A stretch of 64,000 nt of DNA, taken from NCBI GenBank assembly GCA_903930435.1, contig CAIYYN010000008.1, positions 124,001 to 188,000 on the forward strand, in the 5' to 3' direction. Both the position numbers and the translations under genes were made by a program. The notes under the pieces are model-generated. The model ran no database searches. It saw only the letters and a program-made list of their open reading frames with translations, and was not told the DNA's origin. The stretch comes from an uncultured Hyphomicrobiales bacterium (GTDB lineage Bacteria; Pseudomonadota; Alphaproteobacteria; Rhizobiales; Ancalomicrobiaceae). Below, one piece after another: positions 1,275 to 46,111 of this stretch; position 1 is the first letter of the stretch, and every line of letters begins with the position of its first letter.

Positions 1275-1592
1275 CTTGTCTCAAATCTCCCGGCAAACGA
1301 ATCTTGGTAGTTAAAAATTTATACGTCAAAGCTTTTATAGCTTGACAGGAAGATCTCAAGAGATCATTTCCGACCAATCGGCTGCGGGATAATCCCGGCG
1401 GCTGAATCACAAGGCACTGAAAGTACATGGGCAGTATCAGCTCGAGCAGCAGGATTGTGGCGATTGCCGCAGATCGGTTGCTCACAGGTCTGGTCCAAGG
1501 GTCGGATACCCGGTGCAAGGCATAAGCGGTCACTGACGCGCAGCCTTTCATCCTCCGGCTTTGGATCGCAACCAAAGAACCGGAGGTGAGCC
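1275..1592 (+). other. Gene-free leader region before the small frames and Nramp
   Basis: About 318 bases with no convincing gene on either strand. It must hold the promoter of the minus-strand small secreted protein and probably that of the Nramp transcript. Short inverted repeats occur around 1484-1520 (for example GGGT...ACCC at the pair near 1498), but I could not match them to a known riboswitch. In particular I do not see the GGGGAGUAG core of the yybP-ykoY manganese element. Confidence 0.4.
1552..1586 (+). promoter_or_regulatory. Hairpin covering the Shine-Dalgarno of a small frame
   Basis: CCTCCGG (1552-1558) pairs perfectly with CCGGAGG (1580-1586), and CTTTGG (1559-1564) with CCAAAG (1572-1577); an AA bulge sits at 1578-1579 and the loop is seven bases. 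The 3' arm contains GGAGG, the Shine-Dalgarno of the frame that starts at 1593. When folded, this 13-bp hairpin would block translation of that frame. The arrangement resembles the expression platform of a translational riboswitch or an RNA thermometer. Confidence 0.55.
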
Positions 1593-1712
1593 ATGAACAA
1601 GCTCTCCAACACCATTGTCCGTTTTGTACCTCGTCGCTCGGTCGCAGGCGCAGGATTGCGCCGCATTGCCGATGGCTCCGACGTCCCCGGTTACAGTCGC
1701 CGCGCGAGCTGA
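1593..1712 (+). CDS. Putative 39-residue leader peptide upstream of Nramp
   Basis: A short frame of 39 codons with a strong start: GGAGG six bases before the ATG. The peptide begins MNKLSNTIVRFVPRRSV and is basic, rich in arginine, with no membrane segment. It is the first of two small frames between the gap and the Nramp transporter on the same strand, and its start signal lies inside the hairpin at 1552-1586. It may be a regulatory leader peptide whose translation reports on metal level, or a tiny functional protein. I know of no named family that it matches. Confidence 0.4.
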   Translation: MNKLSNTIVRFVPRRSVAGAGLRRIADGSDVPGYSRRAS

Positions 1713-1827
1713 GGCCAGATTGGTTCGTCTGGAAGCATGGACGACCGAACCCCCTCAAGCTCGCCGCCCAATTTAGCTGTCTGCGCGATGGCAGACCTGT
1801 CGCGTCAGACAAAGAGGACCGATTTCC

Positions 1828-1941
1828 ATGAACGATGGCCAGCCTAGGCTCGCCGACCGGTCCCTGATCGGATCGGCGAGCGGAAACGAACGGAACATCA
1901 TACCCTCAGTCCCAGTCTCCGATCTGCGCAAGGACGCTTGA
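1828..1941 (+). CDS. Putative 37-residue second leader peptide
   Basis: A 37-codon frame starting MNDGQPRLADRSLIG, preceded by AGAGGA about ten bases before the ATG. It ends 50 bases before the Nramp start. Most of its first half is folded into the hairpin at 1849-1880, so ribosome movement through this frame would disrupt the fold. That geometry is typical of leader peptides that couple translation to expression of the next gene. The frame could also be chance, since its codon count is small and its start signal is only moderate. Confidence 0.3.
   Translation: MNDGQPRLADRSLIGSASGNERNIIPSVPVSDLRKDA
1849..1880 (+). promoter_or_regulatory. Strong hairpin inside the second small frame
   Basis: CTCGCCGA (1849-1856) pairs with TCGGCGAG (1873-1880), and CCGGTC (1857-1862) with GATCGG (1866-1871) with one G-T pair and a three-base loop; a single A is bulged. 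Fourteen pairs make this the strongest fold of the Nramp leader. No T-run follows, so it is not a simple terminator. Confidence 0.5.
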
Positions 1942-1962
1942 AGCCAGGCTCATTGGCTTTCG

Positions 1963-1984
1963 CTCCTGACGCAATCGGCAGGAG
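1963..1984 (+). promoter_or_regulatory. Hairpin covering the Nramp Shine-Dalgarno
   Basis: CTCCTG (1963-1968) pairs perfectly with CAGGAG (1979-1984) over a ten-base loop. The 3' arm is the Shine-Dalgarno of the Nramp gene at 1992, so the fold would limit its translation. It is the second SD-covering hairpin in this leader. Confidence 0.45.
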
Positions 1985-1991
1985 TTTGAAC

Positions 1992-3617
1992 ATGTCCAAT
2001 ACGCTCAATTCAAACGGCACTGCCGTTCTCGACGAAGCCCACATCGGCCATATCCACGGGGCCTTTGGCTCAATCCTCCAGCACGACACAAGCCCGCGAA
2101 AGACATTCGGGCACCGGCTGCGCACCCTTCTGGCGATCATGGGGCCCGGCCTCATCGTCATGGTCGGTGACAATGATGCAGGTGCATTTGGCACCTATAC
2201 ACAGGCGGGTCAGAATTACGGCACGACGCTGCTGTGGACATTGATCCTTCTGATCCCGGTGCTTTACGTCAATCAGGAGATGGTACTGCGGCTCGGCGCT
2301 GTCACTGGCGTCGGTCATGCCCGCCTTATCTTCGAGCGGTTTGGCCGCTTCTGGGGTGCCTTCAGCGTCATCGATCTGTTCCTGCTCAATGGACTGACGA
2401 TTGTCACGGAATTCATCGGGATTTCGCTGGCGCTCGACTATCTCGGCCTCTCCAAGCCAATCGGCATCGCAATTGCGGCATTGCTGATCATGGGCGCGGT
2501 ATCGACAGGCAATTTCCGCCGGTTCGAGCGGTTTTCGATGGTTTTGGTCGTCGGCAGCCTCGTATTGGTTCCGATCGTCTTCATGGTGCATCCGCCATTC
2601 GAGCAGATCGCGCATGATCTTGTCACGCCACAATTGCCCAAGGGCGGCAAGCTCAGCGATGTCATGCTGTTGATCATTGCCATTGTCGGGACGACGATTG
2701 CTCCCTGGCAGCTGTTCTTCCAGCAGAGCTACGTCATCGACAAGCGCATCACGCCGCGTTTCATGAAATATGAGCGCGCAGATCTGTGGATCGGGATCGG
2801 TCTTGTCGTGATTGGTGCCGTGGCCATGATGGCGTTTGCCGCCGCCACATTCGCCGGACATCCTGAATTCGGGCAATTCACCGATGCGGGCGGTGTTGCA
2901 GCCGGGCTGGAAGCCTATGCGGGCAAGCTGCCCGGTGTGCTGTTTGCAATCGGCCTCATCGATGCCAGCCTGATCGGGGCTTCGGCTGTGTCGCTGTCAA
3001 CCGCCTATGCCATCGGTGACTGTTTCTCGATCCGGCACTCCCTGCATCGTCCGATTTCGGAAGCCAAGGGGTTCTACGTCGTTTACACCGGACTGATTTT
3101 GGTGGCCGCAGCCATCGTGCTGACACCAGGCGCTCCCCTGGGTCTGCTCACCAATGCCGTCCAGACGTTGGCTGGCGTGCTGCTGCCGAGCGCGACCGTC
3201 TTTCTGTTGCTGCTGTGCAACGACGAAGCGGTTCTCGGACCCTGGGTCAACTCGCGTAGCGGCAATATCTTCACCGGGGCGGTCATCGGTCTGCTGGTTC
3301 TATTGTCGGTCATCCTGACGGTGTCAGTGCTGTTTCCTGACCAGACGAATGAAACTGTCATTATTGGCATCCTCGTCGGTGGATCAGTCCTCGGGCTTCT
3401 CGCGGCAATCCTGTCCGGCATTCTGAAGGCTGGACCGACAGTCGACCGGATGACTAGGGTCAGCCGCGATCTCTGGCGGATGCCCGCACTCGATACGTTA
3501 CCTAAGGCGGAGATGACGCGCGCGACCAAACTCTGGATGCTGGTGCTGCGTGGTTATCTCGTGCTCGCAGGCGGATTGGTGCTCGTTCGAATCGCGATGC
3601 TGGCGATGGGGCAATGA
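1992..3617 (+). CDS. Nramp-family divalent metal transporter, divergent type
   Basis: A 541-residue inner membrane protein with about eleven hydrophobic segments and the Nramp fold, probably driving uptake of a divalent metal. The helix-1 signature is DNDAG (residues 60-64) instead of the usual DPGN, and the helix-6 region reads TTIAPWQLFFQQS instead of the usual MPHNLY-type motif, so the methionine that favours transition metals is replaced by alanine. In described Nramp-related magnesium transporters the same methionine is lost; by inference this protein may carry magnesium or manganese. The N-terminus has a 40-residue soluble tail with several histidines (HIGHIHG). I start at the ATG at 1992 with CAGGAG eight bases upstream; the TTG at 1938 is less likely. 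The leader suggests translational control. Confidence 0.85.
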   Translation: MSNTLNSNGTAVLDEAHIGHIHGAFGSILQHDTSPRKTFGHRLRTLLAIMGPGLIVMVGDNDAGAFGTYTQAGQNYGTTLLWTLILLIPVLYVNQEMVLRLGAVTGVGHARLIFERFGRFWGAFSVIDLFLLNGLTIVTEFIGISLALDYLGLSKPIGIAIAALLIMGAVSTGNFRRFERFSMVLVVGSLVLVPIVFMVHPPFEQIAHDLVTPQLPKGGKLSDVMLLIIAIVGTTIAPWQLFFQQSYVIDKRITPRFMKYERADLWIGIGLVVIGAVAMMAFAAATFAGHPEFGQFTDAGGVAAGLEAYAGKLPGVLFAIGLIDASLIGASAVSLSTAYAIGDCFSIRHSLHRPISEAKGFYVVYTGLILVAAAIVLTPGAPLGLLTNAVQTLAGVLLPSATVFLLLLCNDEAVLGPWVNSRSGNIFTGAVIGLLVLLSVILTVSVLFPDQTNETVIIGILVGGSVLGLLAAILSGILKAGPTVDRMTRVSRDLWRMPALDTLPKAEMTRATKLWMLVLRGYLVLAGGLVLVRIAMLAMGQ

Positions 3618-3734
3618 GGCAGTCGTGGTGTTCGCGGGGATGGCAAAGCGCGGAAATGGGCCTGCCGCCCTCGCATATGGGATGAGCGTCGGCAGACGCT
3701 TGACTTGCGGCGTCGGTTGGCGTCAATTTGGCAC

Positions 3735-3827
3735 ATCCGAGGGGTGGTCAGCTTGCTGATCTGAGATGGTCTTTCCAGGCCGAACCCTTAGAACCTGATC
3801 CGGGTAATGCCGGCGAAGGGACGGGAT
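3735..3827 (+). ncRNA. TPP (thiamine pyrophosphate) riboswitch
   Basis: The conserved TPP aptamer elements are present in order: GGGGTGG, CTGAGAT near 3771, then ACCCTTAGAACCTGATC, GGGTAATGCCGGCGAAGGGA. The position directly before thiC fits its known role: when thiamine pyrophosphate binds, the RNA refolds and thiC expression falls. The downstream fold at 3856-3890 is the probable expression platform. Confidence 0.95.
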
Positions 3828-3844
3828 TTGTCTCCGCCACCTGA

Positions 3845-5716
<1,872 letters not shown>

Positions 5717-44740: not shown

Positions 44741-44821
44741 CGCTCTAAACTAACCGACACATGAATCTGCGATCAGCTGGTTGAAGGGACTGTCCCCAAA
44801 CCACATCCCGGAGGCGTCTCC

Positions 44822-46111
44822 ATGAGTGAGACCGACGAGACACCGCGTGAAAGCGGATTTCTGAAGCAGATCAAGCGCCTGTTTCTGCATCTTGGTCCCG
44901 GATTGATCACTGGTGCGGCAGACGACGACCCGAGCGGCATCGCAACCTACAGTCAGGCCGGTGCCCAGTTTGGCGTCAATATGCTTTGGTCTGTTGTCAT
45001 CACTTATCCCTTGATGACCGCCATTCAGACGATATGTGCCCGCATTGGCCGCGTGACCGGCAAGGGCTTGGGGGCCAATATGGCTGCCATCATGCCGCGC
45101 TGGCTCGTCACGATCCTGGTCATGCTTCTCTTTGTCGCCAACGTCGTGAATATCGGTGCCGATCTGGCCGCAATGGGCGCTGCTGCGCGGCTTGTCGTCG
45201 GGGGGAACGAGGTTTTTTACGCCATCGCATTCGCAATCCTGTCGCTGATTGCGCAGGTCTGGATTCCCTATGATTCCTATGTCCATGTACTGAAATGGCT
45301 GACAATGGCGCTGTTTGCCTATGTCGGTGTGCTGTTCACCGTGCATATCGACTGGCTGGCAGTGGCTGAGGGCACCGTCTGGCCAAAGCTTGTCTGGAAC
45401 CGGGATGCATTCACGGTGATCGTGGCCGTGTTCGGCACCACGATCAGCCCATACCTATTTTTCTGGCAGACGGCGGAGGAGGTCGAAGATACGGACCTGA
45501 AGGCAAATGACGGGCCCCTACTGGCGTTTCCAGATGAAGCTCCAGCGGAACTGGACCGTATCGCGACCGACAATTACGTCGGCATGGGATATTCTAATCT
45601 CATTGCTTTTTTCATCGTTCTGACGACTGCGGTTACCCTGAACAAGGCCGGTATCACCGACATCCAGACGTCGGCGCAAGCTGCCGAAGCGTTGAGGCCA
45701 ATCGCCGGGGAATTTGCCTTTCTGCTATTCAGCCTCGGGATTCTCGGGACCGGACTGCTGGCTTTGCCCGTTCTGACGGGATCGTCGGCCTATGCGATCG
45801 GCGATGTACTGGGCTGGAAGATTGGGTTGGAACAGACGCTTTCCAATGCCAAGGCCTTCTACGCCGTCATCGGGCTCGGCTATGGTCTGGGGCTGCTGAT
45901 GCTTGTCTTGCCCATCGATCCGATCAAGGCGTTGTTCTGGAGCGCGGTGTTGAATGGCGTGATAGCGGTGCCCCTGATGGTGGCGATCATGCTTGTCGTT
46001 TCAAATCGTGCCCATCTCGGCAAATTTGTCGCACCGCCGGTTCTCGCTGCCTTTGGTTGGCTGGCGACAGCCGTCATGGCCGCTGCCGCTATTTCGATGC
46101 TTGTGTTGTGA
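44822..46111 (+). CDS. Nramp-like divalent metal transporter, second copy
   Basis: A 429-residue inner membrane protein with about eleven hydrophobic segments. Helix 1 reads GAADDDPSGIATYSQAG, in place of the classical DPGN, and the helix-6 region reads TTISPYLFFWQTAEEVEDTD, where the metal-selecting Met and His of classical Nramp are absent. It therefore belongs to a divergent clade and may carry magnesium or another hard ion, or have lost metal selectivity. It is shorter than the first Nramp-like protein and lacks its N-terminal tail. GGAGGCG precedes the ATG. Confidence 0.85.
   Translation: MSETDETPRESGFLKQIKRLFLHLGPGLITGAADDDPSGIATYSQAGAQFGVNMLWSVVITYPLMTAIQTICARIGRVTGKGLGANMAAIMPRWLVTILVMLLFVANVVNIGADLAAMGAAARLVVGGNEVFYAIAFAILSLIAQVWIPYDSYVHVLKWLTMALFAYVGVLFTVHIDWLAVAEGTVWPKLVWNRDAFTVIVAVFGTTISPYLFFWQTAEEVEDTDLKANDGPLLAFPDEAPAELDRIATDNYVGMGYSNLIAFFIVLTTAVTLNKAGITDIQTSAQAAEALRPIAGEFAFLLFSLGILGTGLLALPVLTGSSAYAIGDVLGWKIGLEQTLSNAKAFYAVIGLGYGLGLLMLVLPIDPIKALFWSAVLNGVIAVPLMVAIMLVVSNRAHLGKFVAPPVLAAFGWLATAVMAAAAISMLVL

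Follow-up and report, generated by a model that had tools for sequence, protein, structure and literature searches.

A small-frame leader family that probably controls the translation of magnesium uptake genes in Alphaproteobacteria

We analysed a stretch of 64,000 nucleotides (nt) from an uncultured Hyphomicrobiales bacterium (contig CAIYYN010000008.1, positions 124,001 to 188,000; hereafter the window), focusing on the leader ahead of a gene for an NRMT-like transporter of the Nramp family. This leader probably belongs to an undescribed alphaproteobacterial family that controls Mg2+ uptake genes at the level of translation, with the ribosome as the proposed sensor. Ahead of the transporter lie three upstream open reading frames (uORF-A, uORF-B and uORF-C) and two putative switches, each able to hide a Shine-Dalgarno (SD) sequence (Table 1). 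An earlier note on the same DNA had proposed an undescribed metal-related leader working through small-frame translation, and comparison with relatives supports that proposal.

Transporter homologues were gathered from named genomes and from additional genomes, and their leaders were compared. One layout is common to ~30 distinct alphaproteobacterial loci from Bradyrhizobium, Rhodoblastus, Beijerinckiaceae metagenome-assembled genomes, the family of genome G257 and the window's own genus: uORF-A, an SD-hiding hairpin, uORF-B, uORF-C with an internal hairpin, a second SD-hiding hairpin, and the transporter. In these relatives, uORF-A starts with ATGGGCAGTA and runs for 30-38 codons before a short spacer. 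The first SD hairpin has the form GCTCACC...GGAGGTGAGC-N-ATG, uORF-B is mostly 49-112 codons long and usually carries the motif CxWxxDxxxGRLxCxW, and uORF-C starts with (A/T)TGAACGACGGCCCNAGT and spans ~35-42 codons. The layout was not seen in the beta- and gammaproteobacterial or actinobacterial homologues of the same set.

Table 1. Features of the transporter leader in the window (positions within the window, forward strand +)
Feature	Position	Strand	Basis or remark
Likely leader promoter, -35-like TTGACA	1342..1347	+	Element conserved ahead of uORF-A in relatives
uORF-A, 32 codons, MGSISSSSRIVAIAADRLLTGLVQGSDTRCKA	1427..1525	+	ATGGGCAGTA start seen in relatives
Switch 1 element 1, GUGAG in most relatives, GGUGCAAGG here (degenerate)	1511..1520	+	Alignment of relatives (A1)
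Switch 1 element 2, anti-SD	1544..1558	+	Folding; covariation in relatives
Hairpin 1, hides SD of uORF-B	1552..1586	+	Folding; RNAalifold finds helix unprompted
uORF-B, 39 codons, shortened by frameshift (same-genus relative: 72 codons)	1593..1712	+	
uORF-B motif remnant (CxWxxDxxxGRLxCxW) in another frame, LEAWTTEPPQARRP	1729..1770	+	
uORF-C, 37 codons, MNDGQPR..	1828..1941	+	Relatives start M(N/K/D/Q)DGPS(R/C/S)
Hairpin 2, from ~codon 8 of uORF-C	1849..1880	+	Homologous helix covaries at 9/9 pairs
Switch 2 element 1, end of uORF-C, competes for transporter anti-SD	1931..1936	+	Folding
Switch 2 element 2, transporter anti-SD	1963..1968	+	Folding
Switch 2 element 3, contains transporter SD; forms hairpin 3 with 1963-1968	1979..1984	+	Folding
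Nramp-family transporter, NRMT-like, TM1 DAGA, TM6 TTIAPW (TM, transmembrane helix)	1992..3617	+	Pfam Nramp 7e-83

The earlier note had described three hairpins (1552-1586, 1849-1880 and 1963-1984) with frames of 39 and 37 codons, and all of these coordinates hold. However, it had let the leader start at hairpin 1, whereas the leader begins further upstream. Of 48 leaders, 42 (2.6 expected) have a TTGAC(A) element 74 to 121 nt (mostly 79 to 88) ahead of uORF-A. This puts the probable transcription start ahead of uORF-A as well and well upstream of position 1586, beyond which a start would have spoken against the note's proposal. The argument for a promoter relies on this conservation, since generic promoter and terminator scans of the forward strand returned neither a full sigma-70 consensus nor an intrinsic terminator. 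The leader probably begins near 1390, and it contains three frames. Both of the small frames noticed before are real, but uORF-A had been missed, and the 39-codon frame is, by comparison with relatives, a frameshifted remnant of a longer uORF-B.

The helix ahead of uORF-B forms part of switch 1. Hairpin 1 joins CCTCCGG (1552-1558) to CCGGAGG (1580-1586) and covers the GGAGG of uORF-B (1582-1586), as had been observed, with a pairing probability of 0.99-1.00 for this SD whatever context was folded. RNAalifold recovered the helix unprompted from 30 aligned leaders; 11 two-sided compensatory cells were counted, compared with 3.4 in shuffles (0/500). A larger set of 52 matches gave 21 such cells vs. 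5.6, although this alignment was fitted to the model and thus leans towards it. The homologue of hairpin 2, correctly placed by the earlier note within the 37-codon frame and present in all window folds spanning it, shows two-sided changes at every pair (37 cells vs. 10.8, 0/500 shuffles). Homologous leaders therefore have both the covariation and the small frames whose absence the note had named as evidence against its reading.

Hairpin 3, which the note had drawn over the transporter SD, depends on the length folded. Folds from 1930 or 1942 do pair CTCCTG (1963-1968) with CAGGAG (1979-1984), but longer folds, from 1395, 1530 or 1828, replace this hairpin by pairing 1963-1967 with 1931-1936 at the end of uORF-C. 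Overall, SD pairing ahead of the transporter exceeds that in shuffled flanks (Fisher p ~2e-7), while for single sequences the shuffled null itself reaches 0.57-0.67. The leader from 1530 to 2010 folds at -190.6 kcal/mol (z = -4.0), which none of 100 dinucleotide shuffles equalled.

A comparable competition could operate at switch 1. In window folds, 1544-1551 pairs with element 1 and 1552-1558 with the SD of uORF-B. Among relatives, the helix between GUGAG near the end of uORF-A and CUCAC is paired in 93% of cells, compared with 27-58% when slid. The GUGAG is retained across differing uORF-A reading frames and even contains the uORF-A stop in four loci (L020, L027, L032 and L116), suggesting that it functions as RNA. 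The two structures may exclude each other; covariation backs the ribosome-binding-site (RBS) helix, and its competitor is conserved but does not covary.

Searches with covariance models extended the family beyond Nramp genes. The uORF-C DNA motif alone was too narrow, with a single match bearing two mismatches in an order-wide search of 397 genomes, and a covariance model was therefore needed. The first model (R1) describes switch 1 without the uORF-A start, and the second (R2) is broader. Among 298 genomes in the family of G257, R1 found matches at E <= 0.001 in 39, mostly ahead of an Nramp gene, and it found only one copy in the window's genome, at the transporter leader; R2 added matches in other families. 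In 21 of the 22 R1/R2 matches examined, ATGG(G/A)C occurs 66-87 nt upstream of the model and opens a frame of 30-40 codons, the exception being a weak match (L191). The uORF-A stop lies 49-61 nt before uORF-B in the matches examined. R1 also matches the switch-2 region, before the transporter or an intervening gene, in six loci (L106, L115, L120, L122, L124 and L125), indicating that the second switch resembles the first.

The genes behind these leaders are NRMT-like Nramp transporters, MgtE, MgtC, the Mg2+ P-type ATPase MgtA, OprB-like porins, and an ATP-binding cassette (ABC) operon with MgtC. MgtE occurs downstream in L170, L171 and L187 and directly downstream in L191, and MgtC in L163. 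An ABC permease and ATPase follow the leader in L172 and L189 and, with MgtC behind them, in L173. The leader of L188 precedes a magnesium P-type ATPase (TIGR01524, 1398 bits, cut-off 611) and then an OprB-like porin; the ATPase is interrupted in L196. Porins of this type are also found in L159-L162, L164, L168, L190 and L193, and no clear target gene was found in L165. MgtE, MgtC, MgtA, two porins and one ABC permease were identified by library scans and the remainder by resemblance. Four weak matches (L192, L194, L195 and L197) are unclear or probably false positives and were left out. In five porin loci (L159, L160, L161, L162 and L168), two ORFs resembling hydrogenase subunits come directly after the leader and porin. 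With MgtE, MgtA and MgtC among the alternative targets, Mg2+ is the most likely metal.

The small frames themselves offer a possible link between Mg2+ and translation. Ahead of MgtA, MgtE or the ABC-MgtC operon, uORF-A starts with MDSYPS, MDDYSS, MDNDPS, MDDDPS or MDSDPS, so that acidic and proline residues stand near the start of these frames (MDxxPS), as they do in uORF-C (MxDGPS). Starts of the MD(S/D/N)xPS and MNDGPS type resemble enterobacterial Mg2+ leader frames, which is why we propose that the ribosome fails on them at low Mg2+. The transcript would begin upstream of uORF-A. A ribosome translating uORF-A to its stop would cover element 1, leaving element 2 to pair with the SD of uORF-B (element 3) and turn uORF-B off. 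If translation of uORF-A failed early, element 1 would instead pair with element 2 and free uORF-B. Translation of uORF-B would be coupled to uORF-C, whose stop region would form a second switch of the same kind ahead of the transporter. At low Mg2+, the ribosome would thus drop off or pause at the short start of a frame, backed in uORF-C by a hairpin directly behind it, and the transporter would be turned on. Of this scheme, comparison establishes the frames and the order in which they stand, the two helices tested, the promoter element and the link to Mg2+ genes. On balance, we give an even chance to the full version of this reading, in which the translating ribosome senses Mg2+, two copies of one uORF-controlled anti-SD switch act in series, the leader defines a Mg2+ regulon (MgtA, MgtE, MgtC, NRMT-like, porin and ABC genes), and the whole is a second design of the mgtL/mgtQ type, apparently unrelated in sequence.

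Leader-peptide control by Mg2+ has been worked out mainly in enterobacteria. Like uORF-controlled Mg2+ leaders of the mgtL, mgtP, mgtQ and corL type, the present family has a small frame upstream of Mg2+ transporter genes. In E. coli and Salmonella, mgtL carries proline and acidic codons before mgtA, and its poor translation at low Mg2+ leads to expression (PMC11552253). However, mgtL acts mainly through Rho-dependent termination (PMC11552253), whereas the conserved elements here hide an SD. Salmonella mgtQ is again a small frame ahead of a Mg2+ transporter gene; translation aborts at its early Asp and Glu codons, and the mgtB RBS is thereby released from a stem-loop (PMC8092293). Yet mgtQ has 8 codons and lies between operon genes, in contrast to the 30-40-codon frames found here in 5' leaders of another bacterial class, ahead of several targets. 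The mgtCBR leader of Salmonella, with the tandem attenuators mgtM and mgtP, likewise combines two successive small frames, alternative stem-loops and the Mg2+ gene mgtC, with one helix hiding the RBS, but it is enterobacterial and PhoP-driven, and mgtM and mgtP sense ATP and proline (PMC3641672). The present leader differs from it in having two copies of one anti-SD switch with a longer frame between them. We know of no sequence similarity between the two leaders.

Two further systems share parts of this arrangement. The M-box ahead of Clostridium NRMT genes is also a Mg2+-linked leader RNA before an Nramp-related magnesium transporter (PMC4072509), but our leader has no M-box match and has small frames in place of a metal-binding aptamer. 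The Thioalkalivibrio mgtE motif (candidate SRC-65-1) also places an SD-hiding structure before an annotated mgtE; going by the portion of the source that describes it, the motif is a riboswitch candidate confined to the genus Thioalkalivibrio with small frames not mentioned, and this description sets it apart (PMC11109978). In the openly licensed literature, we found no description of this leader and nothing comparable for Alphaproteobacteria. The proposed working principle is a variant of that of uORF-controlled Mg2+ transporter leaders, while the family appears new by sequence and host range. A leader common to several kinds of uptake gene would mark out a Mg2+ regulon among methylotrophs, rhizobia and related bacteria, and could be used to predict Mg2+ handling by individual NRMT-like, porin and ABC transporters. 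It would also make the ribosome-as-sensor idea testable in a second, apparently independent system.

Association with Mg2+ genes, strong structure and anti-SD helices typical of expression platforms would also suit a metal-binding riboswitch, in which Mg2+ or Mn2+ would bind directly to the RNA and shift SD pairing, with the small frames being secondary. We consider this unlikely. With Rfam 15 (yybP-ykoY, M-box, Mg_sensor and all others) at curated thresholds, neither the window leader nor the leaders of 20 relatives gave a match, in agreement with the earlier note, which had not found the yybP-ykoY core. Moreover, loops vary in length and sequence, and conservation falls on the contexts of starts, the positions of stops and the SD helices; neither alignment A1 nor A3 contains a conserved aptamer-like junction.

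Substitution patterns bear on the rather unlikely alternative that uORF-B, and perhaps the other frames, encode functional small proteins of the transporter operon, with hairpins providing translational coupling only. Among relatives, uORF-B substitutions by codon position (604/616/865) show a third-position excess (p = 3e-14, from sequence pairs that are not independent), and together with the conserved CxWxxDxxxGRLxCxW motif this indicates peptide selection on uORF-B. No such excess was detected in uORF-A or uORF-C (p = 0.3 and 0.4, same test); what counts in these two seems to be chiefly the translated RNA and its fixed start. Furthermore, uORF-B is broken in the window's genome while the rest of the leader is kept, and the SD helices covary. 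Compared with Pfam and NCBIfam, the uORF peptides matched no family, apart from one match far under the cut-off, and no plasmid copies of the one uORF-B tested were found. The uORF-B motif (e.g., L016 and L124) could be that of an arrest peptide or a functional small protein.

Codon usage in the same frames raises the possibility, in our view a quite improbable one, of a general translation-stress or tRNA-charging attenuator (responding to Ser AGU, Pro or a ribosome-targeting drug) that these genes use incidentally. The Ser codon of uORF-C is AGT in 22 of 24 cases, AGU is common in uORF-A, and Pro codons occupy the same position. In the first uORF-A set, GGC-AGT was part of the selection rule and thus provides no independent evidence, whereas the model matches do. 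However, the uORF-C Pro codon is free at its wobble base (CCT, CCC, CCG or CCA), and the downstream genes serve Mg2+ uptake rather than amino-acid biosynthesis or resistance. An origin of the hairpins and frames by chance, in an intergenic region rich in GC, has virtually no standing. Shuffled sequence does often score high in SD pairing, but such an origin is refuted by ~30 conserved loci, by covariation and by the uORF-A start, which the model lacks and which nearly all model matches examined carry.

Several observations weigh against translational control by a Mg2+-sensing ribosome as we propose it. The porin and ABC targets are not proven Mg2+ genes. The MGS-type uORF-A of Nramp and porin leaders lacks acidic and proline residues, and with coding-type bias missing from uORF-A and uORF-C, their peptides beyond the start may not matter. 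The GUGAG:CUCAC helix showed no covariation excess in the aligned leaders. Element 1 as a simple copy of the SD region was rejected as not significant across loci (Fisher p 0.27 and 0.99), and single-sequence tests of the element-1 duplex against shuffles were not significant either. Finally, in the window, hairpin 1 stays intact when element 1 pairs with 1544-1551, so that switch 1 may not switch here.

This last point fits the state of the leader in this genome. The first 26 residues of the window's uORF-B match those of a close relative (L005) that keeps all three frames, after which a frameshift leaves the CxW motif in another frame. Switch 1 thus looks degenerate in the window, with uORF-B broken and its SD locked, and most of the control would fall to uORF-C and hairpin 3. 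Switch 2 looks intact, with both foldings retained.

The transporter itself is consistent with a role in Mg2+ uptake. Its best solved relative is EleNRMT (7qia, E 1e-52), no other solved Nramp chain does better than 2e-18, and EleNRMT is a Mg2+ transporter (PMC8806188). The window protein shares TTIAPW in TM6 with EleNRMT and thereby has the NRMT TM6 signature (TxxA/T, with the binding-site Met lost); GTT(V/I/T)APW occurs in 113 translated matches of relatives. By contrast, the NRMT TM1 signature DxxG is replaced by DAGA (DxxA), and we therefore call the protein NRMT-like rather than NRMT. Some caution is also advised by an Acidobacterium protein of the NrmT group, for which manganese was reported as the main substrate (PMC4072509). 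Three more Nramp-family genes occur in the genome (window positions 44804-46036 and two other contigs), with 28-30% identity and no leader.

Variants of the leader were also seen among relatives. A second uORF type, ..EPPSR/EPPSC with CCTCC(T/C)AGT, lies at ~-779 (L105), -556 (L022) and -592 (L031) from the Nramp gene; in L105 it is followed by a HisE-like ORF and then the Nramp gene. These three leaders had no R1 match and probably represent a related leader outside the reach of the model. In Bradyrhizobium L058, uORF-C and the transporter are separated by an extra ORF of ~90 codons (~-332) that carries NIIRFP close to its end, and L036 and L037 have similar ORFs. In L125, an ORF of 152 aa (-523 to -68) of unassigned family separates uORF-C from the Nramp gene and has an SD hairpin of its own, which the model matches. 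Elsewhere in the window, the single cmscan match was an ordinary thiamine pyrophosphate (TPP) riboswitch (3730-3838, 74.7 bits) upstream of a ThiC-like ORF (3896-5716).

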